36,282 nucleotides of DNA from a virus: positions 1 to 36,282 of the IMG/VR virus record IMGVR_UViG_3300025701_000028. One strand, 5' to 3'. The notes under the pieces are model-generated. The model had not been told where the DNA came from. It saw only the letters and a list, made by a program, of their open reading frames with translations, and ran no database searches. This document shows, in pieces, positions 9,622-30,530 of this stretch. How positions within the stretch are numbered: position 1 is the first letter of the stretch; every line of letters begins with the position of its first letter. Position numbers and translations under genes: made by a program.

Positions 9622-10407
9622 ATGAAATTCATAAAGACTATTCACGACCGTAACCTGACCTTGCCAGCGATGTTAATTTTTGGTTATATGTTTGTGCCAA
9701 TGATTTTTTCACAAGTTCCAGCAAACATGCAAAATGATATTACTTATGCAATTCCAGATTTCGAGGAAGAGACGACCTCTCCGCTCATCAAGACCGAAAG
9801 TTTTGGCAAGGGCGGACCAATTGATGCTTTGATCTGGGGCACAGAAGATACTTCTTTAGATCAAAAGTTCGAGCCCGAGCCAGACCCAGTAGAGATTACT
9901 AGGCTTAATAAGTTAAATTACAGCAATGCCAGATTTCCAGTATCTCCAGCAGATGTTAGCAGTGACTTTGGCTGGAGAGAGCCACCATGCGATGTCTGCA
10001 GCTCAGATCACCACGGAGTTGATTTTATTCCAGGTGCTGGGGCAGATGTAGTTGCAATTCTTGATGGAATGGTAGTTCAGGCGGGAATCAATGGTGGATT
10101 TGGAAATTGGGTGGTTATTGAGCATCTGGTTCCAAGCGTTGAGGTAGACGGAGAGTTTGAGAGGTGGAAGAGTCTTTACGCACACCTTGAAGATGGATCA
10201 ATCCCTAAAAATGTCGGAATAGGGTCAATAGTAACTAAAGGTCAGCTAATTGGACTAGTCGGAAATACTGGAGTCTCAACTGGAGATCATTTACATTTTG
10301 AAATTATTATTGACGGTATTCCCCAGGACCCAATGCCACTATTAGCAACATACTCTAGAATTGAGATTTTGCAGGATGGCACAGAACGCTTCATAAGATA
10401 CGAATAG
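9622..10407 (+). CDS. M23-family peptidase (LytM/lysostaphin-like)
   Basis: 261 aa. An N-terminal membrane anchor or signal lies at about residues 13-31 (LTLPAMLIFGYMFVPMIF), followed by an acidic linker, then the M23 metallopeptidase domain from about 105: FGWREPP, H130-H-G-V-D134, LYAH188L and DH223LH225FE, which supply the zinc ligands and catalytic histidine. The family cuts peptide crosslinks in peptidoglycan, so this is an endolysin or a virion wall-opening enzyme; its place among tail genes favours the second, the anchor fits export or membrane tethering. A CDVC motif just before HHGVD is unusual. Confidence 0.85.
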   Translation: MKFIKTIHDRNLTLPAMLIFGYMFVPMIFSQVPANMQNDITYAIPDFEEETTSPLIKTESFGKGGPIDALIWGTEDTSLDQKFEPEPDPVEITRLNKLNYSNARFPVSPADVSSDFGWREPPCDVCSSDHHGVDFIPGAGADVVAILDGMVVQAGINGGFGNWVVIEHLVPSVEVDGEFERWKSLYAHLEDGSIPKNVGIGSIVTKGQLIGLVGNTGVSTGDHLHFEIIIDGIPQDPMPLLATYSRIEILQDGTERFIRYE

Positions 10408-17378: not shown

Positions 17379-18698
17379 TTGGCTAGAAAAGAAGCAGGGG
17401 GAAGGTCATCTCAGCAGAATGACTTCCTGGAACCAAAGCAACCGATTATTGACTCTGCTATAAACACTGGAACTAATAGGCCTTTTGCAAGCGGTCAAGT
17501 TATTGTAACTGTTAGCTTACCAGCTGGCTCACCAGAGGCTACTTCTTACGAAGTTACAGCAACACCAGCCGCTGGATCGCCAGTAGTAGTATCAAATGCA
17601 ACTAGCCCTATTACTGTGGATGGATTGCAAAGCTCTACGTCTTACACATTTACTGCCACCGCCTCGAACGCAGCTGGAACATCTGCTGCTTCAGACGGCC
17701 TGTCCGTAGACGTAACCTCTGTTCCAGGAACACCTTCAGCACCTACTGCTACAGCTGGGGTTAACGAGGACACCGTTACTTGGATTGCCCCTGGCGACGG
17801 TGGCACTCCAATCACAATGTATTACTGGGAGTCAGATGATGCAAAGTCTGGATCCACTGCAGACCTGTCTGTAGTTGTTGCCCAAGAGGCTAACACCTCG
17901 CAGGCTTACCGTGTAAGAGCAGAGAACGCTAATGGTTTAGGTGAATGGTCTCCTTGGTCTGGTAACATTACCACCCTTGCTCCGTTCTTCCCATTCTTCC
18001 CGCACTTCCCACCGCACTTCCCACCACACTTCCCGCCACACTTCCCCCCGTTTTTCCCGTTCTTCCCGTTCTTCCCACACTTCCCACCGTTCTTCCCGCA
18101 TTTCCCACCCTTCTTCCCGCACTTCCCACCGCACTTCCCACCGCACTTCCCACCACACTTCCCGCCACACTTCCCACCGCACTTCCCACCGTTCTTCCCA
18201 AGGTTCCACGCATGGTGTATCCACGAAGACACTTTGGTTAGGACTGCTCGTGGTGAGATTCCTGCAAAGGACGTGGTTGTCGGAGACAAGGCCGTAGTTC
18301 CATCTCTTGGAGAGATGACAGCTACAGACCCAGGCGATGCCAAGGAGTCCATGTTTGCGTGGTCATCAGACACCCTGACATTTGGCGATGTTGTAGAGAC
18401 AGATGTTCTCTACCTAGGTCCCAAGATGTCACCATGCGTCTACTTCAACGGAAACGAGGCTGCTAAGTTCTCATTCACACAGACAATTTACGTCAAGCGT
18501 GATGGGGTATACAGAATCGTACCAACATCAGACATTGAGGTTGGGGATACGTTGATCCAGGTACTAGAAGATGGTTCGTACTCAGAAGATGTTGTTGAGA
18601 CAATTCACAACGTCGAAGAGCCACAGATGACCTACCTGATCGGTTGCGAGCCTCAAGACTGGTTCGTAGCAGGTGGATACCTAGTTCACAACAAGTAA
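17379..18698 (+). CDS. Fn3 - HFPP repeat - Hint protein, copy 1 (439 aa)
   Basis: Three parts. Two fibronectin III domains (about 35-115 and 116-200; LQSSTSYTFTATASNAAG, TVTWIAPGDGG). A low-complexity tract at 202-274 made of HFPP and FFP units. A Hint (intein/hedgehog-type) domain from Cys280 (HAW-CIHEDTLVRTARGE) to the end, closing YLVHNK, with the Asn of the HN pair followed only by Lys. Known Hint domains activate the bond before the first Cys as a thioester and cleave after Asn. The start is a TTG with AGGAG 6 bases upstream. It lies directly before the oxygenase cluster, separated from it by a terminator. Probable surface-exposed, self-processed tail protein; substrate for the hydroxylases is inference. 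Confidence 0.8.
   Translation: MARKEAGGRSSQQNDFLEPKQPIIDSAINTGTNRPFASGQVIVTVSLPAGSPEATSYEVTATPAAGSPVVVSNATSPITVDGLQSSTSYTFTATASNAAGTSAASDGLSVDVTSVPGTPSAPTATAGVNEDTVTWIAPGDGGTPITMYYWESDDAKSGSTADLSVVVAQEANTSQAYRVRAENANGLGEWSPWSGNITTLAPFFPFFPHFPPHFPPHFPPHFPPFFPFFPFFPHFPPFFPHFPPFFPHFPPHFPPHFPPHFPPHFPPHFPPFFPRFHAWCIHEDTLVRTARGEIPAKDVVVGDKAVVPSLGEMTATDPGDAKESMFAWSSDTLTFGDVVETDVLYLGPKMSPCVYFNGNEAAKFSFTQTIYVKRDGVYRIVPTSDIEVGDTLIQVLEDGSYSEDVVETIHNVEEPQMTYLIGCEPQDWFVAGGYLVHNK
17982..18200 (+). repeat. HFPP/FFP codon repeat tract, copy 1
   Basis: 219 bases of 12-base (CACTTCCCACCG-type) and 9-base (TTCTTCCCG-type) units coding for residues 202-274. Third positions vary, so the peptide pattern is maintained while the DNA drifts in part. 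Confidence 0.9.
18156..18277 (+). repeat. 122-bp identical segment, copy 1
   Basis: Identical base for base to 29988-30109. It spans the end of the HFPP tract and the first 33 or so codons' worth of sequence across the Hint N terminus; flanking sequence differs. Confidence 0.85.
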
Positions 18699-18712
18699 CA
18701 TTTAACAAAGTT

Positions 18713-18745
18713 AGGGCCCTCGTAAAAGCGGGGGCCCTTTCTTTA
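18713..18745 (+). terminator. Intrinsic terminator after the first Hint gene
   Basis: AGGGCCCTCG (18713-18722) pairs with CGGGGGCCCT (18729-18738) over a 6-base loop (10 pairs, one G-U), followed by TTCTTT. It ends the adsorption operon before the oxygenase genes. Confidence 0.85.
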
Positions 18746-18748
18746 TGA

Positions 18749-18754
18749 TATAAT
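18749..18754 (+). promoter_or_regulatory. Extended -10 promoter of the oxygenase cluster, leaderless
   Basis: TGATATAAT with -10 at 18749-18754, exactly 6 bases before the ATG at 18761, straight after the terminator. It separates the oxygenase operon from the fibre operon. Confidence 0.75.
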
Positions 18755-18760
18755 TATCCC

Positions 18761-19498
18761 ATGAGTAATCCCTGGTTAACAAAAGACAGATCAGAAACAG
18801 CAAACAATAGGCTACCCGACAGGGTAATGCCTAACGGAACCGTTGTGCAAAATCCAGCACTTGGAATTAATGTATACAAGAATATCTTTACCGAAGAGCA
18901 GTGTAAGGATATAATTGGTACCTTAGAAGGCAACCTTACTGACAGCCAGCACTTTTCTTGGGAAGGTGCTAAGGTTACAGAGGGGCATGAGGCTATCCTG
19001 GAAGCTAGAAATTGTTTAGACTTTAAGATAGGCCAAAAAAATTTAGGACCAGAAACTGATTGGAACAAGGATCTTTATAGAATTCACGAAGATTCATTTC
19101 GGTCAATATACCCACACGTAGAAGACTATGGCCAATACTGGGGCGTAGTCATGAGATACTATGAAGTGTTCAACTACGTAAAATATGAGGGCACGGGAAA
19201 ACATTTCGCAGTACATGCTGATCATGGTCCAGCATACGTAACTACGGTTTCAGCAGTCGCTTATCTAAATGACGACTATGACGGGGGAGAGATTGTGTTC
19301 CCCAGGTTTAACCTATCGATTAAGCCTGAGCCAGGTGATTTGGTGGTATTTCCATCAACATATATCTACGAGCATTCATCAGAGCCAATCGTAAATGGAA
19401 ACAAATACTCTATTGTTGTCATGACAGACTATAACGATAGGGGCGGAGCAAAGTACTTCGACTATACAAAAGTAGATACAAGCAAGCTAACATATTAA
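18761..19498 (+). CDS. 2OG-Fe(II) oxygenase 1, prolyl-hydroxylase type (245 aa)
   Basis: The double-stranded beta-helix core lies at about 135-225: iron ligands H152-A-D154 and H205, and K215 exactly 10 residues later. Lys at this place is what animal collagen prolyl-4-hydroxylase uses to hold 2-oxoglutarate, whereas many others use Arg. The cluster-wide signature YLNDDYDGGEIVFPR is at 168-182. The predicted reaction is hydroxylation of a protein residue with 2-oxoglutarate and O2, giving succinate and CO2. Leaderless first gene of the cluster; the next gene follows after 9 bases. The substrate is unknown. Confidence 0.85.
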   Translation: MSNPWLTKDRSETANNRLPDRVMPNGTVVQNPALGINVYKNIFTEEQCKDIIGTLEGNLTDSQHFSWEGAKVTEGHEAILEARNCLDFKIGQKNLGPETDWNKDLYRIHEDSFRSIYPHVEDYGQYWGVVMRYYEVFNYVKYEGTGKHFAVHADHGPAYVTTVSAVAYLNDDYDGGEIVFPRFNLSIKPEPGDLVVFPSTYIYEHSSEPIVNGNKYSIVVMTDYNDRGGAKYFDYTKVDTSKLTY

Positions 19499-19507
19499 GA
19501 GGGAGAC

Positions 19508-20215
19508 ATGGACAACTCAATCGAGTCACACGAGAAAAGACTTCACGACTGGTACGCTATTGAAGAGCAAACCTGGAGTGACATAACAGATCTTGGTAAT
19601 GGGATCATGGTTTACCATGGCGTCTTGAAGCCAGAGCTAGACATTATTAATAGGCTAGAGACAGTAGTGTCTGACCCTACTAATAATTACAACTATGCAG
19701 AAGCAATGGTTGGGTACGGAATGAAGATGCCAGAGTATAGAGACTGCTTCGATATCAAGTTTAAAAAAACAGATATTGAGGGAGACACATCAGAAGCCTC
19801 TCTAAAACTGCAGTCTTTGTGGGAAGACGTTCAGTTTAGAAAGCTACAGGCAGTTAAGCACTACACCAAACAGTTTAATGTGGGAGAGCTTAGATACTGG
19901 GAAGCTTTAAACTTTGTAAAGTATGGCACAGGCCAGCACTTTCAAGAGCACACAGACCATGGTTTCTCTTACAATTGTGTAGTATCCCTAGTGGGCTACG
20001 TTAATGACGACTATGAGGGTGGAGAGATAAACTTTAGAATGCAGGGGGTCAAGATCAAGCCAAAGGCTGGAGATCTTTTTGTATTCCCATCAAACTATAT
20101 GTTCCCGCACCAAGCTATGCCAGTTAAGAGCGGGACAAAGTATTCAATCGTAACGATGCTCGACTACTCAAATAAGTTTCATAATGACAAGTTCTACGCA
20201 GAGACTGGAGAGTAG
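19508..20215 (+). CDS. 2OG-Fe(II) oxygenase 2 (235 aa)
   Basis: A close relative of oxygenase 1: FVKYGTGQHFQEHTDHG here versus YVKYEGTGKHFAVHADHG there. Ligands are H148-T-D150 and H201 with K211 ten residues on; the signature is YVNDDYEGGEINF at about 164-176. All catalytic residues are present, so an active enzyme is expected. It has a GAGGGAG ribosome site and a short gap to oxygenase 1, so it is co-transcribed. It probably arose by tandem duplication. Confidence 0.85.
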   Translation: MDNSIESHEKRLHDWYAIEEQTWSDITDLGNGIMVYHGVLKPELDIINRLETVVSDPTNNYNYAEAMVGYGMKMPEYRDCFDIKFKKTDIEGDTSEASLKLQSLWEDVQFRKLQAVKHYTKQFNVGELRYWEALNFVKYGTGQHFQEHTDHGFSYNCVVSLVGYVNDDYEGGEINFRMQGVKIKPKAGDLFVFPSNYMFPHQAMPVKSGTKYSIVTMLDYSNKFHNDKFYAETGE

Positions 20216-20218
20216 CCT

Positions 20219-20929
20219 TTGAAAAAGGTAAATGTTTATACTGGCAGTAATCAGTATGGAAAGATAGATCAGCTACCCTTGCAGAGGGATTGGATGGACA
20301 CCACTTTTGACAGGCATGCCTATCAGTGTTTCCCAATGTCTTTGGTAAATAGGCTTGGCTGGGGTATATCATATCCAGAAGACATTACCTTTGTTTGGGA
20401 CGGAGTAAATGACTCTACTGACAAGCATGTCACTGTTCTGTCTGGACATAAGTATGTGCACAGCGGCAGAGGCAACCGCACTATAAGCTTCTTTACCGAC
20501 CTGGTCTTTGATTTTGAAGAAACCACATCACTATTGACCATGCCAGTCCCAAATCAATTTATAAGGGGTGCACAGTGTATATCGACCATTATAAGCCCCT
20601 CAGCACTCCAAGGAGAGCTTCCCATAGCATGGATGATCACAGAGCCTAACATCGAAATTACTATCCCTGCTGGGACTCCTGTGGCTGCTATCATGCCAGT
20701 ATCTCTTACTGGACTCCAGGAATATGAGGTTTCTGTCCATAATCAGAGGCCACCCCATGAAGACTATTCCTGGAAGAACCGAATGAGAGAGCGTGGAGAA
20801 AAGAGCCAAGAGTTGAATATGGCAGGGGAGTGGACACACTTCTACAGAGACGCAGTAGATCATAATGGAGATCCACAGGGTGAGCACGAAGCAAAAAAGG
20901 TTATAATGAAGGTGAATTATGAGTTCTAA
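20219..20929 (+). CDS. Unknown protein in the oxygenase cluster, DUF6065-like (236 aa)
   Basis: It lacks the HxD...H iron motif. Notable segments are HAYQCFPMSLVNRLGWGIS, FTDLVFDF, a conserved-looking MPVPNQFI, and ITIPAGTPVAAIMPVSL. I associate the CFP...N..GW pattern and the late P-x-GTP-x-x-x-I-x-P motif with DUF6065, from memory only. It starts at TTG 3 bases after the oxygenase 2 stop, with GGAGAG upstream. The C-terminal region is charged (RPPHEDYSWKNRMRERGEK). The next gene is a probable relative. A cupin-like or partner role is possible; nothing firm can be said. Confidence 0.55.
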   Translation: MKKVNVYTGSNQYGKIDQLPLQRDWMDTTFDRHAYQCFPMSLVNRLGWGISYPEDITFVWDGVNDSTDKHVTVLSGHKYVHSGRGNRTISFFTDLVFDFEETTSLLTMPVPNQFIRGAQCISTIISPSALQGELPIAWMITEPNIEITIPAGTPVAAIMPVSLTGLQEYEVSVHNQRPPHEDYSWKNRMRERGEKSQELNMAGEWTHFYRDAVDHNGDPQGEHEAKKVIMKVNYEF

Positions 20930-21653
20930 AAAGATTACATTTATTGCAGATTCTTATGCAGTGGATCCAAAAGACAACGAGACTGATCCAGGGCCAATCG
21001 GAAAGACGATCCCCGAGTGGTATCGCAATGCAGACAGATACTACAAAGACCCCTCTGGTCAGAATTATAAAGACCAGCAAGGTAACAATATCCATAGCTG
21101 GAAGTCTTGTCCTGTGGTCTATGACGGCATGGACTCTGGTTATGCATTTAAGACCCCATGTGACCTAAAGTTTACCAGGGATGATAGCGGAGTCCCCCAT
21201 GTAGAGATTCTTGACAGCAGGTTCCCAAACTTTGTTCAGGAGCGTCCCCCTATGCCTGGATTCCAGGTGCCGTGGGGCTACGACGCTTTTCATTTTGCTT
21301 GGTACGGAGAGTGGGCGGTAAAGCTCCCAAAGGGGTATAGCGCACTATACGTACAGCCAATCAATAGATATGAGCTACCGTTTGAAACAACTAGCGGCTT
21401 TATTGACAGTGATGTTGTAAACCTATTCGGAACTGTCCCATTCTTCTTGGCAAAAGATTTCGAGGGCATTCTTCCAAAGGGCACTCCATTCCTACAAATC
21501 ATTCCGTTCAAAAGAGAGAACTGGGACTCCGAGTACGAGTACCCAGATCAGATGAAAATTTATAATGACAATATGGAAAACATTAAGAAATACAGAACAT
21601 CAAAAGGCGGGGTATATCTTAATGAGGTTTGGGAGAGAAGGAAGTATAACTAA
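20919..21653 (+). CDS. Unknown protein in the oxygenase cluster, second of pair (244 aa)
   Basis: It shares with its neighbour a SCPVVYDGMDSGYAFKTP (compare CFPMSLVNRLGWGIS) and an ILPKGTPFLQIIPFKRENW motif (compare IPAGTPVAAIMP), so the two are probably paralogues. Its start overlaps the previous stop by 11 bases, which suggests coupled expression. No iron-ligand triad is present. The C terminus is polar and rich in Tyr, Asn and Glu. Function unknown; its place between oxygenases suggests a shared pathway. Confidence 0.55.
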   Translation: MSSKKITFIADSYAVDPKDNETDPGPIGKTIPEWYRNADRYYKDPSGQNYKDQQGNNIHSWKSCPVVYDGMDSGYAFKTPCDLKFTRDDSGVPHVEILDSRFPNFVQERPPMPGFQVPWGYDAFHFAWYGEWAVKLPKGYSALYVQPINRYELPFETTSGFIDSDVVNLFGTVPFFLAKDFEGILPKGTPFLQIIPFKRENWDSEYEYPDQMKIYNDNMENIKKYRTSKGGVYLNEVWERRKYN

Positions 21654-21672
21654 TTATATCCATGGGATATGT

Positions 21673-21678
21673 TAAAAT
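21673..21678 (+). promoter_or_regulatory. Extended -10 promoter, leaderless
   Basis: TGTTAAAAT with -10 at 21673-21678, exactly 6 bases before the ATG at 21685, giving an internal promoter within the cluster. Confidence 0.7.
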
Positions 21679-21684
21679 AGACTT

Positions 21685-22401
21685 ATGACAAATCATCAAG
21701 AAGCACACGAAGGCGCAAACCTATATGAAAGCGATTTCTATAGAGGTCCAGACCCATACTCCATTACGCCATCTGGTTATTTTGGTAATTCTGCGGACAA
21801 TATTGTAGAAATTGAAAACTTCCTTACCCCAGAAGAAATCTCATACCTGAAGAACTTCATGAAAACTAATACCCACTGGGACTATACAGAAGATCAGTAT
21901 AACGATGAGGGGGTTCAGATCTATGATGCCTCTTATTGGAAAGATCGGGTAGCTACCTGGAATACTCTGACAGAAGCTAACCCAGAAGTTCTTGTGGTAA
22001 TTTCTAACGCAGTAGCCAGATTTAAGCCAATTGTCGAAAAGTTTTTTAACGTAACAGCTTTCCCAACTAAGCCAGCCTTGGTCCGTTGGACACCAGGGAC
22101 TCTTCAAAATCCACATGCAGATAAAGAGCTGCACCTAGGCGACGACGCAGGAAAGCCTAATGCTTTCCCTTGGTATGACCTAGCAGGATTATTCTACCTA
22201 AATGATGAGTATGAAGGCGGAGAGCTCTTTTTCCCAAATCAGGGGATTCAGTTTAAGCCAAAAGTAGGTGCCGCATACTTTTTCCCAGGGGACATGAACT
22301 ATATACACGGCATTACAGAGATTACCTCTGGTGAAAGATATACTGTTCCATTCTTCTGGACAATTACAGAGCTAGGAGAGTTTGATGCCAAATATAGTTA
22401 G
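21685..22401 (+). CDS. 2OG-Fe(II) oxygenase 3 (238 aa)
   Basis: Iron ligands are H144-A-D146 and H208, with R218 for 2-oxoglutarate; the signature is YLNDEYEGGELFFPNQG at 171-187 and the motif ITSGERYTVPFFW at 213-225. The N-terminal half has an FLTPEEISYLKNFM helix (47-60), common in prolyl-hydroxylase-like proteins where it precedes the core. It belongs to the Arg-type subgroup. Leaderless start; its stop lies 17 bases inside the next gene. Confidence 0.85.
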   Translation: MTNHQEAHEGANLYESDFYRGPDPYSITPSGYFGNSADNIVEIENFLTPEEISYLKNFMKTNTHWDYTEDQYNDEGVQIYDASYWKDRVATWNTLTEANPEVLVVISNAVARFKPIVEKFFNVTAFPTKPALVRWTPGTLQNPHADKELHLGDDAGKPNAFPWYDLAGLFYLNDEYEGGELFFPNQGIQFKPKVGAAYFFPGDMNYIHGITEITSGERYTVPFFWTITELGEFDAKYS

Positions 22402-23335
22402 AGGTGGAACTGGTTGGGGCCAGGACCCAGTGTCTCCAGAGATCTTGGACTCAGTAAAGTTTGAAGAGTTTTACCCAAAGATTCATGTGTATAAAAACTT
22501 GTTGCCAAGTGCTGAGAGGCTAGTAGAGATTCTTAAAGAGTCTGGACAAGACAGGGCAGCATCTTATTACTTTAACATGTGGGATAAGTGGCATGTATTC
22601 GGAGAAACAATTGGTGGGATAAACTTTAATCCAATTTACGAAGACCTTGTAGATGAAGAAAAGAAGGCAGCAGAAGAAGTTATTGTTAGAGAGCTGAATA
22701 ATGCTTTTGCAACCGCAACGCAACACTACATGAGGTACAACAATGTAACTAAGGGCGATGACTGGACAACCATGGGGCCATCAATTTGCAAGTATGATTC
22801 CGAGATGGAGCATTGTGGAATTGACTACCTTAGCATGAAATACCACACAGACTATGACTTTATTCGTGGAGATGAGCCTGGAGACAAGTTCGCTATTACT
22901 TGTACGATGTATCTTAATGATGACTATGAGGGCGGAGAAATGTGGTTTAACTTAAGCGGAAGTGCCGCAGACTCGTTTGGAGAGATCCCACTAAAAGACT
23001 CTGAGATCAATATCTACAAGCCACAAGCTGGTGACGTTTTGGTTTTCCCATCGGGACATCCAGACGTGCTTTCCGAAGATAGTACGTACTTTCACGGGGT
23101 AAGTAGGACTTGGAAGTCAGAGGAGAACCCCTCTAACAAATACTTTATTAGGTCATATTACCTAATCCCGTTTGAGGGAACTCCAGAGTGGTTAGCAGGA
23201 CAAGACAAGTATGGAGAAGAGGTCTGGGAGAAGATGGAGACCGAGAGAATTAAGTCAAGGGTAAAGACCCACCAAGAACTTCAAATTCTGAAAACGAGGA
23301 CATCTGCCAGCGATAAGGAGTGCGGTCTATACTGA
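22385..23335 (+). CDS. 2OG-Fe(II) oxygenase 4, extended form (316 aa)
   Basis: Longer than most members. Ligands are H154-T-D156 and H237; the signature is MYLNDDYEGGEMWF at 175-188. A large insert (residues 189-212) separates the strands, and the 2-oxoglutarate anchor appears to be K252, 15 rather than 10 residues after the His. The C terminus adds about 50 charged residues (EEVWEKMETERIKSRVKTH). I chose the ATG at 22385 since AGGAG lies 6 bases before it. Its TGA overlaps the next ATG. A close relative of oxygenase 5. Confidence 0.8.
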   Translation: MPNIVRGGTGWGQDPVSPEILDSVKFEEFYPKIHVYKNLLPSAERLVEILKESGQDRAASYYFNMWDKWHVFGETIGGINFNPIYEDLVDEEKKAAEEVIVRELNNAFATATQHYMRYNNVTKGDDWTTMGPSICKYDSEMEHCGIDYLSMKYHTDYDFIRGDEPGDKFAITCTMYLNDDYEGGEMWFNLSGSAADSFGEIPLKDSEINIYKPQAGDVLVFPSGHPDVLSEDSTYFHGVSRTWKSEENPSNKYFIRSYYLIPFEGTPEWLAGQDKYGEEVWEKMETERIKSRVKTHQELQILKTRTSASDKECGLY

Positions 23336-24249
23336 TGTCAGAGCTAGAGTACTATGATTTAGAAGGTGCACCCATGGTTAGGGTGTACAAAAATCTGCTA
23401 CCTAGCATAGATAGAATTCACGAGGTTCTAATTGATTCAGAGAAGAACCCCGAAAAGTACAGCAGGTTTGGTGGATGGAGACAGTGGAACAACTTAGGAA
23501 CTCAGGTTCCAGCTGGTCTTGGCGGATATTCTAAAGAATACGTTGGAAAAGATACATCATTTTTTTGGCCTGATTTAATAAGTTCAGATCTTCATAAAGA
23601 AGAGGTATCGCTATTGTCTGAGATGTATGATGCCTATTTTATAAGTCTTGAACACTATTCCAAAAGTCATGGTTTAGATTATGGACTGGAGACTTTTCCA
23701 GATGGCCCAGCCTTCTATAAGTATGATCATTCTCTCCAAGCACCTACCCCAAATACTCCAGAATTCCATATGAACTACCATACCGACTTTGCATTTTCGC
23801 TGAAGGGTAACCCAGGGAAAAAGTCAATTACCACAACGACTATGTATTTAAATGACAACTATCTGGGCGGAGAAGTCGTGTATAATATAGAGCCAAGACT
23901 AGCTAGGCCATACTACAAGAGGTCAGAGCAGTTTGCCAAAGATGAGTCTTACTATTCTGGAAGGGTTGTTCTTACTCCAGAAAAAGGAGACGTCGTTGTT
24001 TTTCCATCTGGAAATCCAGAATATCTTTCAGAAAACGGCTACTACTTTCACTGTGTAAATAGGGTCCAGGGAGGGGATAAATACTTTGTTAGCTTTTTTA
24101 ACTCGTACCTGTATCATGGATCAGAAGAGTACCAGGCTGGAGTAGAAGAATACGGAGAAGATTTATGGACATGGCTAGAACAAAGACGAACATTCCAAGC
24201 AGGATTTAGAAAGAAAGCGGTATCATTAAATGACCCAGGAAAAGAATAG
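23335..24249 (+). CDS. 2OG-Fe(II) oxygenase 5, extended form (304 aa)
   Basis: A paralogue of oxygenase 4 with the same overall layout (VYKNLLPS near the N terminus, insert in the core, charged C terminus). Ligands are H149-T-D151 and H239, and K249 stands 10 residues later; the signature is MYLNDNYLGGEVVYN. It begins at the ATG overlapping the previous TGA; AAGGAG lies 14 bases upstream, so start coupling rather than spacing probably drives it. The core insert (YYKRSEQFAKDESYYSGR) is basic and tyrosine-rich. Confidence 0.8.
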   Translation: MSELEYYDLEGAPMVRVYKNLLPSIDRIHEVLIDSEKNPEKYSRFGGWRQWNNLGTQVPAGLGGYSKEYVGKDTSFFWPDLISSDLHKEEVSLLSEMYDAYFISLEHYSKSHGLDYGLETFPDGPAFYKYDHSLQAPTPNTPEFHMNYHTDFAFSLKGNPGKKSITTTTMYLNDNYLGGEVVYNIEPRLARPYYKRSEQFAKDESYYSGRVVLTPEKGDVVVFPSGNPEYLSENGYYFHCVNRVQGGDKYFVSFFNSYLYHGSEEYQAGVEEYGEDLWTWLEQRRTFQAGFRKKAVSLNDPGKE

Positions 24250-24880
24250 CATCCCAAAACTAGAATCAAAGTCTTTTGTATTTTTTAAAGACGAAGTTAT
24301 CACTAACGGCAAAGGACAGCTAGGAGTAGAGAGAAACAGGATTGTAGAGATTCCTGGATTCGTCTCTGAAGAGATGTCAAAGTCTCTGGTTGAATACTTT
24401 AAGAAAGAAGACAGATGGGGAGAGACGGCTTTTAATGGATCTCACGGCGCCCCCGTAGAAGCTGGAAGTTCAAAGCCATCTGACTTTGGGCTAGAAGACG
24501 CTGTCTTTATGACTATAAACTCAAAGCTACAAGAGGCTGTATCGGCTGTTTATGGCAAATTTATAACGCCATCATCCATACATGCTCAAAAGTGGGACGT
24601 AGGGTCTTCCGCAAATCCTCACTCAGACAACTCTGACTTCGAGGGGAATCCAACAGAAGGATTTGAAAACCTAAAGTATGTTGGAATACTTTACCTTAAC
24701 GACGACTATGAAGGTGGAGATCTTTTCTTCCCAGAGCATGATATATCCATACACCCGAACCCAGGGTCAATGTATATATTTAGTGGCGGTGTAGAAAACA
24801 TTCACGGTGTTACAGAAATTACTTCTGGCACCAGATACTCAATAGTCTCTTTTTGGGATGTTGCGAAAGGGGGCCAGTAA
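24230..24880 (+). CDS. 2OG-Fe(II) oxygenase 6 (216 aa)
   Basis: A compact Arg-type member: H131-S-D133, H192, R202; YLNDDYEGGDLFFPEHD at 155-171; then ITSGTRYSIVSFW. GGE is replaced by GGD. The N terminus RNRIVEIPGFVSEEMSKSL corresponds to the FLTxEE helix region of oxygenase 3. It starts 20 bases inside oxygenase 5 and probably depends on coupling. All ligands are intact. Confidence 0.85.
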   Translation: MTQEKNSIPKLESKSFVFFKDEVITNGKGQLGVERNRIVEIPGFVSEEMSKSLVEYFKKEDRWGETAFNGSHGAPVEAGSSKPSDFGLEDAVFMTINSKLQEAVSAVYGKFITPSSIHAQKWDVGSSANPHSDNSDFEGNPTEGFENLKYVGILYLNDDYEGGDLFFPEHDISIHPNPGSMYIFSGGVENIHGVTEITSGTRYSIVSFWDVAKGGQ

Positions 24881-24881
24881 T

Positions 24882-26165
24882 ATGGTCTGGAACCCAGCAT
24901 CTGATAACTTTAACATGTATTCTGGATTAGTGGCCGAGGCTCCAGAGTTTATCGGAGAGTCTCAGGCGTCCGATGTAATTAAGTTTTTTGATAAGCAAGA
25001 CACATCTTGTGCCCTGCATCCTCACACTCACCACACCCCAAATAACGAAGACGTCTCTGATAATTTTTCGTGGGATAAAGAGTGTATTAATCTGCAGGGA
25101 AGCCCCTCATCTGAAATTGATAAATCAAAGCTCGATAACATATTTGGAATCTCGGGTCTTATAAAGCAAATGCAAGACGCTGTAGCCAGGAGTACAAATG
25201 AAGATGTTGAGTTAGCAAAGGTTGTCTTTCATAAATACACTCCAAACTCTTCTGGCCCAGAGCATATCGATGTATGGCCACAGGCTTCTTTACTTTACCT
25301 TAATGATGACTACGAAGGCGGCGAGTTATATTTTCCTAATCAAGATTTAGAGATTTCTCCAAAAGGTAGGTCTCTTCTAATCTTCAATGGCGGGGGAGAC
25401 AACATGCATGGTGTTAAGAGAATTAGCTCTGGATATCGGTATGTTCTTGTAGCATTCTGGGAGTTTAGGGATAAAGCTAATTTGCAAAATTTTTGGGATA
25501 AAGAGAATAAAGAAGTTGACGAGAACAATGCCGTAGTGTCTAAAGAAGTTTCCAGGCTGAGATCTTACAACGAAAGTTCTACAGTCCTTTACGCCCATAG
25601 ATTTCCAATATTTGAAATTCAGTCATTTGTTTCAAGCACTGAGGCCGAGAGATTAGAAGACTATCTTTCTATAAACGATTCCCGCGACGAGTGCTGGGGA
25701 CCCATATGCTTTAGAGAGTACTGGGAGGCTATTGGAGGATCTTCAGACAAGTGGCCACAGCTTGTTCCAGGAATAGAAAAAGATACAATAAGCAAGTTGA
25801 GTAAAAAAATTAAAGATGCGGTAGAGTTCTTCCTAGATGGAGAGCAAGTGGAGTTCTCTAAGATGAAGGGGCACGAGCACCCAGAGGGTGCCTCAAGTCC
25901 ACCACATGGACATGGCCCAGCCAGAGCGGTAGCAATTCTGGCATTAAATGACAGCTATGAAGGTGGCGAGGTTACAATACCCATGTATGGAATTTCCCTC
26001 AAGCTAGACCTGGGGTCTTTGTATATTTTCCGTGAAGGCGACGATGTACCCAATGGCGTTGCTAAGGTTATTTCTGGTACTAGGCATATCATCATGTCTC
26101 ACTGGCAGCCAGTAGGTCATCCGTATAATTCTGCAGGGGCCTCTGAGCGAAATTTCCTGGTATAA
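24882..26165 (+). CDS. Tandem 2OG oxygenase with degenerate second domain (427 aa)
   Basis: A fusion of two oxygenase domains. Domain 1 (1-195) is complete: H128-I-D130, H176, R186, YLNDDYEGGELYFPNQD. Domain 2 (about 235-412) keeps the fold signature (LALNDSYEGGEVTIPMYG) and R401, but the HxD is H342-G-H344 and the distal His is Asn391, so iron binding is probably lost. It may be a substrate-binding or regulatory pseudo-domain, as in other enzyme families with inactive copies. I prefer the ATG at 24882, with an AAAGGGGG ribosome site, over an upstream ATG at 24858. Confidence 0.85.
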   Translation: MVWNPASDNFNMYSGLVAEAPEFIGESQASDVIKFFDKQDTSCALHPHTHHTPNNEDVSDNFSWDKECINLQGSPSSEIDKSKLDNIFGISGLIKQMQDAVARSTNEDVELAKVVFHKYTPNSSGPEHIDVWPQASLLYLNDDYEGGELYFPNQDLEISPKGRSLLIFNGGGDNMHGVKRISSGYRYVLVAFWEFRDKANLQNFWDKENKEVDENNAVVSKEVSRLRSYNESSTVLYAHRFPIFEIQSFVSSTEAERLEDYLSINDSRDECWGPICFREYWEAIGGSSDKWPQLVPGIEKDTISKLSKKIKDAVEFFLDGEQVEFSKMKGHEHPEGASSPPHGHGPARAVAILALNDSYEGGEVTIPMYGISLKLDLGSLYIFREGDDVPNGVAKVISGTRHIIMSHWQPVGHPYNSAGASERNFLV

Positions 26166-26198
26166 TATTATATAAAGAATCTAGGAGATTGTTAAGAT

Positions 26199-26927
26199 AT
26201 GGAAATTAAAGTTAGCCACCACGAGAAGATCGTAGAGATTAAGTCGTTTTTAGATAGGCAGTACTGCCTTGACGTCATTGAATTCCTAGATGGAAATGAT
26301 GACGACGGTGATAACTGGAATCCAATTTGCTTCCCAAGTGTGCTTGGCGTAAATGTTGGCGAGCCAAAATCTACAGACAAAATTTCTGTAGAAGATATGG
26401 GCAAGATTAGAGACAAGATGCATAAGGCAGTAGAGGATGTCATCGGTAGGCCAGTGAAGAATATGACAATGAGTGGTCATAAGTATCCTACTGGATCATG
26501 GGCAGCCCCACACTCAGATAGCTCAGAGCTAGACGGAACCCCAAATGCTTGGCAAATGAACAAGTATGCCTGCATCCTTTATCTGAATGATAATTACACT
26601 GGCGGAGAGATTTATTTCCCACAGCACAATATCGATATTGCCCCAGGTCCAGGCAGCTTGGTAGTATTCGAGGGCAGCCACGAATTCCTCCATGGAGTAA
26701 GGGAAATCACAAGCGGCGACAGGTTTACAATACTAGCTTTTTGGGATAACGAAGAAGCAGTATATGACAAGGAATTTTTAGAGCAAAAGGTTGATGAGCA
26801 AAGAACAGCTTTGGACTATGTAGAAAGTAGCCATGACTATGGTCAGTACAATGGAAGAACTTTTGGTAAGCAGAATCCAGAAGATCTATATGGAGTAATG
26901 GGCGAAGAGTCTAAAACACAAAGGTAG
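26199..26927 (+). CDS. 2OG-Fe(II) oxygenase 8 (242 aa)
   Basis: Arg-type: H105-S-D107, H165, R175; YLNDNYTGGEIYFPQHN at 128-144; ITSGDRFTILAFW at 170-182. The C-terminal 55 residues (EQKVDEQRTALDYVESSHD and on) form an extra charged tail. It has AGGAG about 14 bases before the ATG and an extended -10 (TGGTATAAT) overlapping the end of the upstream gene. It is convergent with oxygenase 9: the two coding ends overlap by 17 bases, with no terminator between. Confidence 0.85.
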   Translation: MEIKVSHHEKIVEIKSFLDRQYCLDVIEFLDGNDDDGDNWNPICFPSVLGVNVGEPKSTDKISVEDMGKIRDKMHKAVEDVIGRPVKNMTMSGHKYPTGSWAAPHSDSSELDGTPNAWQMNKYACILYLNDNYTGGEIYFPQHNIDIAPGPGSLVVFEGSHEFLHGVREITSGDRFTILAFWDNEEAVYDKEFLEQKVDEQRTALDYVESSHDYGQYNGRTFGKQNPEDLYGVMGEESKTQR

Positions 26928-27546
26928 GCAATGCATATCTGGGTATTCCAGGACCTGGTGCCTTCACTCCGTGAAGATATTGATCGTCACCAGGAAATAT
27001 CATTAAAGATTTTGCGGGCGGTCTTACTTCCAGTCCTAGCTTTGGAAAGAACAGCTCTCCCTCAGAGTAGTCGTCGTTAATATATCCAATCGCCGCATAG
27101 GAGATGGATGGGTCACCCTTTTGATCCACATGTTCAACAAGCGGGCTACCCTCGTACTGTCTTTGAATTGTGTTCATTCTTCCAGTAATTAGTTTATAGT
27201 CAAATCCAAAAATAATTTCAATTTTCATCGAAAGCCTTGCAGTAATATCTTCTGGAATCGAGATGGCCTTATCGTACCAGTCATCAGTAAATTCCATCAA
27301 CCCTTCCTTAATGAGGTTGTCTAGATCATCCCTTCCATACTTTTTGCCAGCAAGATCTATTTGACTTTGTAGGTAGTCGTGCTCCCAGTCTGCCTGGCTA
27401 GCGTTATTTATAATGTCTAATACTGGGGCCAAGTCTTCATCAGAAAACACGTCGTATACCAAAAAGACAAAGTCTTCTAGCTCTTCAAACCTATACCCCA
27501 GTTTATGAAGTCTGTTTCGTAAAAGATCTTTGTGGTTAGTATTCAA
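26911..27546 (-). CDS. 2OG-Fe(II) oxygenase 9, inverted (211 aa)
   Basis: Encoded on the minus strand. Ligands are H139-V-D141 and H192, with R203; the signature is YINDDYSEGELFFPKLG (GGE becomes EGE). The N terminus has FRFEELED and FSDEDLAPVLDII. It is closely related to oxygenase 10, with which it overlaps by 11 bases, so both arose by duplication. The C terminus, IPRYALPTFVF, lacks the tail of other members. Confidence 0.85.
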   Translation of the reverse strand: MNTNHKDLLRNRLHKLGYRFEELEDFVFLVYDVFSDEDLAPVLDIINNASQADWEHDYLQSQIDLAGKKYGRDDLDNLIKEGLMEFTDDWYDKAISIPEDITARLSMKIEIIFGFDYKLITGRMNTIQRQYEGSPLVEHVDQKGDPSISYAAIGYINDDYSEGELFFPKLGLEVRPPAKSLMIFPGDDQYLHGVKAPGPGIPRYALPTFVF

Positions 27547-28174
27547 CTTTACGCTTTCTTACAAATGATGGCAAGACATATCGAAGTGGTCCATCCCCAG
27601 GAGGCTTGACCCCATGCAGGTAATCCTCCCCGCTAGGAAAGATTATGAGAGACTTCGCTGGTGGTACAATTTCCAGACCAAGCCTACCAAAGAAAAGTTC
27701 CCCATCCTTATAGTCATCATTGATGTACATAATTACTGCATACTCAATCATCGGGTCTGAGTGGTTGTCTACATGCTCGATTAGTGGGGCGTCTTTGTAC
27801 TGCCTTTGAATTGTGCCGATTCCATCAAAAGCAATGTCCTCGTCAAAAGCTATGACTTCCTGTATTCTTTCAGATATTGGTCCAGATATGTCGTAAGAAA
27901 GTCCGAGGTTCTTGTCAATCCAGTGAGTAGTTATCTCAATGAGACCCTCCTCGACTAGGTTATCTATATCGGTTCTTCCATACTTTCTTTCAGCTAGATC
28001 TTTTACTCCCTGCATATAGTGTGTTGTCCAGTCTTCTTCGCTGGCACCATTTATGCAATCTTTGACCTGAGATACCTCGGAGTCTGATAAAAAGTCGGGG
28101 ATTAGGTAGACACCGCGAGCAACTTCTTTATAGTCGTATCCAAGCTGTATTAGCTGAGCCTCTAGTTTATTCAT
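27536..28174 (-). CDS. 2OG-Fe(II) oxygenase 10, inverted (212 aa)
   Basis: Ligands are H134-V-D136 and H187, with R198; the signature is YINDDYKDGELFFGRLG (DGE). Shared segments with oxygenase 9 include KYGRxDxDNL, TIQRQY, EHVD, YLHGVK and PPAKSL. First gene of an inverted two-gene unit; its ATG lies 6 bases after TATAAT (28181-28186) in TGATATAAT, so the start is leaderless. The C terminus is basic (VRKRKVEY). Confidence 0.85.
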   Translation of the reverse strand: MNKLEAQLIQLGYDYKEVARGVYLIPDFLSDSEVSQVKDCINGASEEDWTTHYMQGVKDLAERKYGRTDIDNLVEEGLIEITTHWIDKNLGLSYDISGPISERIQEVIAFDEDIAFDGIGTIQRQYKDAPLIEHVDNHSDPMIEYAVIMYINDDYKDGELFFGRLGLEIVPPAKSLIIFPSGEDYLHGVKPPGDGPLRYVLPSFVRKRKVEY

Positions 28175-28215
28175 AAGATAATTATATCATAGGCCCTATC
28201 TGCTATAATTAAGTA
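28175..28215. promoter_or_regulatory. Divergent leaderless promoters sharing one core
   Basis: Leftward TGATATAAT (-10 at 28181-28186) and rightward TGCTATAAT (-10 at 28204-28209), each 6 bases from its ATG. Each -10 sits at the other promoter's -35 position with 17 bases between, so polymerase binding at the two should be mutually exclusive. Confidence 0.7.
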
Positions 28216-28734
28216 ATGAGTGTAAACATTAGGGAAGGCCTTATCTCTAAAGAGCAGGTCGATAAGATTAAAGACGCATACAGGGATAGGCTTGTAGAGT
28301 CAAGCGACAGAGCTGGGTTCTTCGAGTCATTCGGAGATCAGATACATCCGTCAATGTTGCTTGCTATTGCCTTGTCTAAAAATGAAATAGAGCAAGAGTA
28401 CGATGTAATCTTGGATGATTATAACCTTGGAGTCGTAAAGCTTGTAGAAGGTGCCTTTAACGGTTTGCATTCAGATATGTATAATCTAGACGGCTCAGAC
28501 CACAGCGACGGCTCTGAGAGAAAAGATGAGCTAGAGTTCTCTGCTATTCTATATCTATCCACCCACGGCGTTGACTTCACTGGCGGCGAGTTGGTATTCC
28601 CACAGCATGATCTAAAAATTAATCCAGAGTCAGGAACCCTAGTATTTTTTAGGGGAGACCTTGATCATACTCATAAGGTAAGACATATCTTAAGTGGAGA
28701 GAGATATGCAATTGTCATGTTTTTTGGCAAATAA
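28216..28734 (+). CDS. 2OG-Fe(II) oxygenase 11, minimal form (172 aa)
   Basis: The smallest member. It has little more than the core: H85-S-D87, H153, R163, GGELVFPQHD at 123-132. The tyrosine of YLNDDY is present but the loop differs (ILYLSTHGVDFTGGE). The N terminus is a short helical segment (LISKEQVDKIKDAYRD). Leaderless start from the divergent promoter. It directly precedes the second Hint gene. All iron ligands are present. Confidence 0.85.
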   Translation: MSVNIREGLISKEQVDKIKDAYRDRLVESSDRAGFFESFGDQIHPSMLLAIALSKNEIEQEYDVILDDYNLGVVKLVEGAFNGLHSDMYNLDGSDHSDGSERKDELEFSAILYLSTHGVDFTGGELVFPQHDLKINPESGTLVFFRGDLDHTHKVRHILSGERYAIVMFFGK

Positions 28735-28751
28735 AATAATTACTTTTATGT

Positions 28752-28757
28752 TAAAAT
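28752..28757 (+). promoter_or_regulatory. Extended -10 promoter, leaderless
   Basis: TGTTAAAAT with -10 at 28752-28757, exactly 6 bases before the ATG at 28764. Confidence 0.7.
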
Positions 28758-28763
28758 TGTAGT

Positions 28764-30530
28764 ATGTCTTACCGTCTCCGTTCCCGTGGCACCTACCACG
28801 AATTTGAGCCTATCCAGGCTTCTGGCGGAACCGTGCTTGAGACAATGATCGATGGAACTTTGCACAAGGTTCACTACTTTACATCTGTTGGTTCTCATAC
28901 TTTTACTCTAGATCGATTCGGATCTAATCCAGAAATTAATTATTTGATCGTAGGAGGCGGTGGCTCGGGCGGAGCCTCCCAGATTGAAGAGGGCGAACTA
29001 GACCCAGCAGACCCAGCAGACGATGGAACTGATGCTCCAGACATAGTAATCGCTGGCGGCGGTGGAGACGCTGGATCAGTTGTTTCTGGATCATATCACT
29101 TTCTAGAAGAAAAGTCTATTCAAATTGTCGTTGGAAACGGCGGCATTACTGGAAGTCCAAGCGGTCCAGGAGAAAGCGGACAGTCTTCAGTAATAGGGCA
29201 AGAAGGGACTGACTTATATATTGTAGCCAGTGGTGGCGACGGTGGCCCATTCTCTAATGCTATTGACGGAGAGGGTGCAGACCCATCTGTATCTGGCATT
29301 AAAGGTCTAGAATCTTCCATCAACGGAATTCTTTCAACTTATGCGATAGGCGGAAAAGCTGGTTCAGATAAGTACGGAACATCTCAAGTAGAATTCGGTT
29401 CAGGCGGAGGGGGTGGCTCTCACCAGGGAGAGATGGGGTCTAGTCTTCCTGGACTCCCAGGAATGCACGGTGCGGTTATCATATCCTATCCAATTAAGCC
29501 AAGGCCAGGCTACCAAAACCCTGCTGTGCCGTCTAAGCCAGACCAGCCACAAGCATCTACTAGCGTTGGACAAGATTTTGTAACTTGGAATGCGGTCCTA
29601 GATAACGGCTCGGCCATCATTGAATATGAGTGGGAGTGCAGTGATGGAAAAACTGGTACGACCACATCTTTAGGCGTTACCGTTGAGCAAGAGCCAGCCT
29701 TGCCCCAGACATATAGGGTTAGAGCTCGCAATGCAATTGGCTACGGCCCATGGTCTGATGACTCTGGATCCGTTACCCCATTGCCACCCTTCTTCCCCCA
29801 CTTCCCACCGCACTTCCCACCATTCTTCCCATTCTTCCCACACTTTCCACCGCACTTCCCACCCTTCTTCCCACACTTCCCACCCCACTTCCCTCCTCAC
29901 TTCCCTCCTCACTTCCCTCCTCATTTCCCACCGTTCTTTCCACACTTCCCGCCACACTTCCCACCGCACTTCCCACCGTTCTTCCCGCACTTCCCGCCAC
30001 ACTTCCCACCGCACTTCCCACCGTTCTTCCCAAGGTTCCACGCATGGTGTATCCACGAAGACACTTTGGTTAGGACTGCTCGTGGTGAGATTCCTGCAAA
30101 GGACGTGGTCATGGGTGATATGGCGATAACTCCATTGCTGGCTGAGATGACGGCAGAAGATCCAGGAGACTCTAAGCCATCTATGTTCTTGTGGTCCGCA
30201 GACACTCTAACGTTCGAAGGACTCGCGGAAACTGAGGTTATGTATCTAGGTCCTAAGATGTCGGCATGCGTCTACTTCAACGGCAACGAAGCCGCCAAGT
30301 TCTCGTTCACCCAGACAATCTATATTAAGCGAGACGGGGTATACAGAATCGTACCAACTTCTGATATAGAACCTGGAGACTTCCTTATAACTGTAGCTGA
30401 AGATGGATCTTATGGAGAAGAGCTAGTAGAATCTGTCACAGTTATAGACGAGCCACAAATGACATACCTTGTAGGCTGCGAGCCACAGGACTGGTTCATT
30501 GCTGGTGGCTATCTGGTGCACAATAAGTAA
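28764..30530 (+). CDS. Gly-rich - Fn3 - HFPP repeat - Hint protein, copy 2 (588 aa)
   Basis: The N-terminal part (1-255) is a glycine-rich phage-tail domain (YLIVGGGGSGG, IVIAGGGGDAG, GSGGGGGSHQG). A fibronectin III domain follows (about 258-340; ITYxWE-like EYEWECSDGK, TYRVRARNAIGYGPW), then the HFPP/FFP tract (342-423) and a Hint domain from Cys429, again closing LVHNK. The domain order matches copy 1 except for the N terminus, so the C-terminal block has been shuffled between carriers. It lies directly after the oxygenase cluster. Confidence 0.8.
   Translation: MSYRLRSRGTYHEFEPIQASGGTVLETMIDGTLHKVHYFTSVGSHTFTLDRFGSNPEINYLIVGGGGSGGASQIEEGELDPADPADDGTDAPDIVIAGGGGDAGSVVSGSYHFLEEKSIQIVVGNGGITGSPSGPGESGQSSVIGQEGTDLYIVASGGDGGPFSNAIDGEGADPSVSGIKGLESSINGILSTYAIGGKAGSDKYGTSQVEFGSGGGGGSHQGEMGSSLPGLPGMHGAVIISYPIKPRPGYQNPAVPSKPDQPQASTSVGQDFVTWNAVLDNGSAIIEYEWECSDGKTGTTTSLGVTVEQEPALPQTYRVRARNAIGYGPWSDDSGSVTPLPPFFPHFPPHFPPFFPFFPHFPPHFPPFFPHFPPHFPPHFPPHFPPHFPPFFPHFPPHFPPHFPPFFPHFPPHFPPHFPPFFPRFHAWCIHEDTLVRTARGEIPAKDVVMGDMAITPLLAEMTAEDPGDSKPSMFLWSADTLTFEGLAETEVMYLGPKMSACVYFNGNEAAKFSFTQTIYIKRDGVYRIVPTSDIEPGDFLITVAEDGSYGEELVESVTVIDEPQMTYLVGCEPQDWFIAGGYLVHNK
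29787..30032 (+). repeat. HFPP/FFP codon repeat tract, copy 2
   Basis: About 246 bases of 12-base and 9-base units coding for residues 342-423; longer than copy 1 and with a different unit order until the identical end segment. Confidence 0.9.
29988..30109 (+). repeat. 122-bp identical segment, copy 2
   Basis: Identical to 18156-18277. Beyond it the two Hint genes differ at many sites. Confidence 0.85.

Follow-up and report, generated by a model that had tools for sequence, protein, structure and literature searches.

An array of prolyl-hydroxylase-like oxygenases accompanies a Phe/Pro-repeat protein in uncultured phages and changes with it

Introduction

Why does a phage carry eleven prolyl-hydroxylase-type genes between two repeat proteins, and on what could the encoded enzymes act? 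According to PMC9301287, 2-oxoglutarate (2OG)-Fe(II) oxygenases are common in aquatic phage viromes and prolyl 4-hydroxylase (P4H) is among the abundant viral auxiliary genes in the Baltic Sea water column, although its viral use 'remains cryptic'. A sequence-only reading of the locus had proposed that the enzymes hydroxylate the phage's own repeat proteins, which it described by their HFPP repeats and Hint domains. Our literature search found no paper on an oxygenase array arranged with a Phe/Pro-repeat fibre.

Results

Organization of the locus

The window, by which we mean the whole stretch of DNA analysed, is a complete IMG/VR record of 36,282 bases. Positions 17379–30530 comprise eleven oxygenase genes, among which a DUF6065 pair is interspersed, flanked by a first (F1) and a second (F2) repeat protein. 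In the following, F denotes such a protein, FP its Phe/Pro repeat, cassette the array together with F, letters the ortholog groups, and L numbers the compared viral records.

17379..18698, +, F1: two fn3 domains (PF00041, 2e-9), FP repeat, C-terminal Hint domain (by PDB profile; AlphaFold); proposed substrate fibre
17982..18200, +, FP/HFPP repeat of F1, 73 aa (28 F, 33 P, 12 H)
18761..19498, +, oxygenase, core group B, first core oxygenase after F (PF13640, 5e-12; ortholog group; HAD..H..K conserved)
19508..20215, +, oxygenase, core group A (PF13640, 4e-15; ortholog group)
20219..20929, +, D1, DUF6065 protein (PF19541, 1e-26)
20919..21653, +, D2, DUF6065-like, weakly dUTPase-like beta fold (phrog_7084, 3e-34; AlphaFold pLDDT 87; Foldseek)
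21685..22401, +, oxygenase, core group C (PF13640, 2e-7; ortholog group)
22382..23335, +, oxygenase, group M, present in 6/6 HFPP-type arrays (PF13640; ortholog group)
23320..24249, +, oxygenase, group L, present in 6/6 HFPP-type arrays (PF13640; ortholog group)
24230..24880, +, oxygenase, group H (PF13640; ortholog group)
24858..26165, +, oxygenase, group K, domain 1 complete, domain 2 degenerate (PF13640; alignment)
26199..26927, +, oxygenase, group I (PF13640; ortholog group)
26911..27546, -, oxygenase (PF13640, 6e-4, below cut-off; phrog_61, 5e-13)
27536..28174, -, oxygenase (PF13640, 5e-6)
28216..28734, +, oxygenase, 172 aa (PF13640, 2e-11)
28764..30530, +, F2: Gly-rich domain, fn3-like domain, FP repeat, Hint domain (PF21722, 5e-7; Hint 79% identical to that of F1)
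29787..30032, +, FP/HFPP repeat of F2, 82 aa
34411..36039, +, portal protein, lineage marker (PF04860, 1e-28; 46% identical to Streptomyces phage portals)

Many genes of the array overlap by 11–23 bases. Several cassette genes are preceded by an extended -10-like motif (TATGnTAnAAT), the hexamer of which starts 12 bases 5′ of the start codon (window 18744–18758 on the plus strand, 28177–28191 on the minus strand, before 21685, 28216 and 28764, and also in L152 and L385); an exact 15-mer, TATGATATAATTATC, is present twice in the window. The placement of the motif suggests that transcripts of cassette genes may be leaderless. Among the tail genes lies an M23 peptidase (9622–10407), possibly a tail lysin.

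The oxygenases are related to peptidyl-prolyl hydroxylases

Each of the eleven oxygenase genes matches PF13640, ten of them above the curated cut-off, and HxD...H is kept in 11 of the 12 aligned domains. Profile and alignment thus agree with the earlier count of eleven genes, twelve 2OG-Fe(II) domains and eleven complete iron sites, which had left the DUF6065 gene at 20219 and its relative at 20919 unmentioned. The exception is domain 2 of the gene at 24858, where the iron site is lost (HGH, distal His gone) and whose iron residues vary in relatives, too. In most ortholog groups HxD...H and the basic 2OG residue are near-invariant, and the core orthologs are only 40–55% identical at their most diverged yet retain HxD..H and the 2OG Lys/Arg. 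When compared with solved structures, a profile of the eleven enzymes matched Bacillus anthracis P4H (4e-14), prolyl 3-hydroxylase (5e-14), EGLN1 (1e-8), Chlamydomonas P4H and the P4H 5c5t (7e-6), which we take to be the PBCV-1 enzyme. The closest solved relatives of the window oxygenases are hence peptidyl-prolyl hydroxylases.

A conserved core of old paralogs

Comparison of about 38 arrays yielded 38 members of group B, 38 of group A and 37 of group C. Relatives carry six to eleven prolyl-hydroxylase-like enzymes behind a Phe/Pro-repeat protein, in the order F-B-A-d-d-C or F-B-d-A-d-C with accessory oxygenases after it, and since the remaining arrays of the comparison show this order again, chance is excluded. 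Clade support for group A is low (0.216), but the place of A in the order does not change. A few pairs of arrays, that of the window and L391 among them, are nearly identical. Identity within group B falls to 40%, so that these enzymes are old, separately conserved paralogs and not recent copies, which implies distinct roles. As a pair, groups M and L are restricted to the six HFPP-type arrays; as these form one clade, their presence counts as a single event, and M-like genes alone are also found in L097, the repeat of which has no His, and in the fragment L214.

A fold search with the AlphaFold model of D2 gave a weak dUTPase-like match (best E 7e-4, TMq ~0.3). The haloarchaeal tailed viruses L352 and L353 encode a relative of D2 with ~30% identity, which in HRTV-14 has adhesin and tail-fibre genes nearby.

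The Phe/Pro repeat, not His or Hint, goes with the oxygenases

In the AlphaFold model of F1 the fn3 and Hint domains are confident and the repeat is disordered (pLDDT ~41). Repeat lengths of 73 and 82 residues match the 73–82 of the sequence-only reading, and its Hint assignment holds for both proteins, since the C-terminal domains match the bacterial intein-like domain 2lwy and the KlbA intein 2jmz (each 4e-5). Like bacterial intein-like domains, they retain the N-terminal Cys and the C-terminal His-Asn. They differ from these in that Gln apparently stands in place of the block-B His (SFTQ/SETQ against the expected TxxH, aligned by eye) and that the C-terminus reads HN-K, with Lys where Cys, Ser or Thr is expected after Asn. 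Splicing by these domains is therefore not expected.

Contrary to the earlier description, neither His nor Hint proved to be a linked feature. Across at least 117 listed FP repeats, Phe accounts for 51% and Pro for 42.5% of the residues (93.5% together), His is absent from most, and only 9/117 among the matches listed are His-rich, on which ground we rejected His as the enzyme target. A Hint end was scored in 18/117 proteins among the matches listed; being an optional end of F, Hint was likewise rejected as the link to the oxygenases. Other FP-repeat proteins (L021–L100, among the matches listed) end in short Cys-rich tails (39/117), other short tails (46/117) or other domains. The constant partner of the oxygenases is the Phe/Pro repeat, with His and Hint dispensable. 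Bracketing by two repeat proteins, seen in the window and some relatives, is not general.

Repeat and enzymes are found together from either side

Twelve records were reached through relatives of the Hint domain in viral contigs, and 11 of them hold oxygenases. A DNA pattern that covers only FFPxFPPxFP, and is thus blind to the enzymes, was then run against viral contigs and yielded at least 120 distinct FP-repeat proteins, counted after removal of identical but not of similar proteins. An oxygenase lies on the same strand within 3 kb downstream of 81 of the 93 listed proteins with at least 1.5 kb of downstream sequence, and it is the next gene listed for 78/120 distinct proteins among the matches listed (median gap 115 bp). 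PF13640 was present in 44 of 50 FP-repeat records searched whole, commonly in six or seven copies; as the records are fragments, 'no array' may reflect a cut contig. The reverse search from group B found an FP-repeat reading frame upstream in 65 of the 68 loci whose contig extends far enough on that side, and after inspection a repeat protein in 67/68 (both among the matches listed), the two samples sharing some contigs. It is literally true of most relatives that their oxygenases persist without an HFPP-Hint protein, which speaks against the original wording, but nearly all of them carry FFPP repeats instead.

Among 50,697 phage records of isolates, neither an FP-Hint relative at E ≤ 1e-3 nor a close full-length ortholog of the tested core enzymes was found, and one scan of cellular genomes gave mostly single, chance-like matches. 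The cassette is carried by a group of bacterial viruses that are uncultured. The actinobacterial family WhiB is encoded in 6/21 cassette contigs, and together with the Streptomyces-like portal this makes actinobacterial hosts likely. Judged from these genes, the hosts of the cassette phages are probably Actinobacteria, less surely so for the window itself, a record without WhiB. Because the related literature deals with the sea and with lakes, we assume that the contigs are of aquatic origin.

Repeat and array are gained and lost together

We compared 25 records with portals related to that of the window. Arrays of at least five oxygenases occur in four, three of which have FP repeats while the contig of the fourth begins at the array. 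The other 21 have no FP repeat (0/21); 18 show no PF13640 match and three show one to four. On a tree of 39 portals, repeat and array switch together six times, four of these on well supported branches, and no pair is discordant; for example, the portals of L190 and L200 are 97.4% identical, and one record has both repeat and array, the other neither. With four firmly supported independent pairs the sign test gives p=0.125, so that the joint switching taken alone is suggestive.

The enzyme set follows the repeat sequence

Seven array-less siblings (L183, L194, L200, L223, L224, L227 and L229) encode the same kind of fn3 protein upstream of the portal. Their repeat is FGFSPF-like, with ~40% Phe, 12–17% Pro and Pro-Pro almost absent, and the protein is usually followed by an unrelated family, Q. 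A separate scan for the FGFSPF repeat provided a comparison set of 63 FGFSPF against 84 FFPP proteins among the matches listed. Here, at least three oxygenases stand behind 65/84 FFPP but 0/63 FGFSPF proteins (Fisher 1e-24), whereas family Q follows within 1.5 kb behind 2/84 FFPP and 38/63 FGFSPF proteins (5e-16). Because related sequences enter both tests as if they were independent, the p-values make the result look more certain than it is, but its direction is clear. One or two oxygenases lie within 6 kb of 35/63 FGFSPF proteins among the matches listed. The enzyme set thus follows the repeat sequence.

Family Q proteins (~217 aa) lie directly behind many FGFSPF fibres (e.g. L194:4094-5385, L227:3779-5070, L223:2887-3540) and share the motifs HDH, HGYYC, GHPH and RITIAYD. 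No Pfam or PDB relative was found for them, and profile comparison with the oxygenases shows no similarity; the HDH...H...R pattern is oxygenase-like by eye only.

Discussion

The joint gain, loss and change of enzymes and repeat suggest that the tail fibre receives a chemical finish from the virus itself. We consider it probable that array and F form a fibre-maturation cassette whose P4H-type enzymes hydroxylate the repeat, mainly at Pro. The core of the sequence-only reading, that the oxygenases act on the phage's own repeat protein, is strengthened by the co-occurrence in both directions, the co-gain and co-loss on the portal tree and the tracking of the repeat by the enzyme set, while its HFPP and Hint specifics needed correction. 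Hydroxylation of the FP repeat itself we infer from sequence, and hold to be rather more probable than its opposite.

With its fn3 domains and a stretch made almost wholly of Phe and Pro, F would be a tail adhesin. The core enzymes B, A and C and the lineage-variable accessory oxygenases would hydroxylate the repeat post-translationally, mainly at Pro. A target common to the repeats must be Pro or Phe because these are the sole residues that all FP repeats share, and Pro is favoured because peptidyl-prolyl hydroxylases are the closest relatives of known structure. The need for several old, separately conserved enzymes would, as we propose, stem from their action at different positions or one after another. 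For a tract so hydrophobic and disordered, hydroxylation could bring solubility, stiffness or stickiness, or create sites for further modification, and the DUF6065 pair may serve as helper or substrate carrier.

The main rival is that repeat protein and array belong to a shared host-interaction module, in which the oxygenases modify a host surface polymer, a glycan or a small molecule and the adhesin travels along through their common dependence on the host. Linkage could indeed arise from a common host-recognition module and not from pairing of enzyme and substrate. SDR genes lie near 17 arrays, TauD-type genes near two, JmjC-like genes near two and a GT8 glycosyltransferase near one (L385:16588-17445, between the array and a second repeat protein); SDR and TauD would fit a small-molecule pathway, and small molecules are substrates of 2OG oxygenases from other families. 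In closely related phages, however, the enzyme set tracks the repeat sequence and not the mere presence of an adhesin, and the closest solved structures are those of enzymes acting on peptidyl-proline. We therefore regard such a module as unlikely.

Decidedly improbable is that the FP repeat is a bystander and that other fibres of the same phage, e.g. collagen-like Gly-X-Y proteins, are the substrate. Collagen is the classical P4H substrate and is discussed for viral P4H in PMC9301287. Five of the compared arrays have collagen-like genes nearby, which in four cases lie downstream of the oxygenases:

L365:9959-11257, collagen-like Gly-X-Y protein
L370:10022-11149, collagen-like Gly-X-Y protein
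L380:12233-13360, collagen-like Gly-X-Y protein
L381:11763-13013, collagen-like Gly-X-Y protein
L360:11126-11848, collagen-like Gly-X-Y protein

Within the stretch examined, no collagen-like gene adjoins the other arrays, including that of the window, whereas nearly all have an FP-repeat protein.

Phage 2OG oxygenases are usually annotated as auxiliary metabolic genes (PMC10611076), which might lower 2-oxoglutarate or alter host nitrogen metabolism, and the window genes match PHROG 61 as cyanophage genes do. The cyanophage-type enzymes, which have been likened to EGLN3 (PMC12774648), belong to the same broad family. In the two isolated cyanophages examined, however, the matching gene lies outside any fibre-adjoining array, and an auxiliary metabolic 2OG oxygenase would be expected outside arrays and apart from structural genes, whereas the cassette comprises several distinct conserved paralogs in fixed order between fibre and portal genes that are lost along with the repeat. 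An ordinary metabolic role is thus very improbable. TET/JBP-like modification of viral DNA is hardly credible, as the Tet_JBP matches are weak (best 3e-5, below cut-off), PF13640 scores far better, and the array is surrounded by late structural genes and tracks the fibre repeat.

The fibre-maturation cassette has partial counterparts among known systems. Chlorovirus PBCV-1 likewise encodes a viral P4H-family enzyme, which is reported to be active on proline-containing viral proteins (Eriksson 1999, cited in PMC9301287). That case concerns one enzyme of an algal virus, the cassette several distinct enzymes of tailed phages, encoded in fixed order next to a single repeat fibre. Collagen prolyl 4- and 3-hydroxylases and bacterial P4H (3itq, 5hv0, 8k0e) share family, iron and 2OG residues with the cassette enzymes, and in collagen, as is proposed for the cassette, several enzymes modify a repeat protein. 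The collagen substrate is Gly-X-Y, whereas that of the cassette would be a Phe/Pro repeat without Gly-X-Y, of which F1 and F2 contain no long run.

More tentatively, and with rather less than even confidence, each low-complexity Phe-rich adhesin class (FFPP; FGFSPF) may come with dedicated modifying enzymes as a repeat-specific cassette. Such a chemically matured fibre might be comparable to mussel glue or plant extensins, enzymes and repeat being swapped as a unit. The adjoining Phe/Pro-repeat protein offers a concrete, testable substrate for viral P4H. If the reading of a fibre-maturation cassette is true, many uncultured phages would mature their fibres by multi-enzyme hydroxylation, and the cassettes would be a source of repeat-specific hydroxylases.
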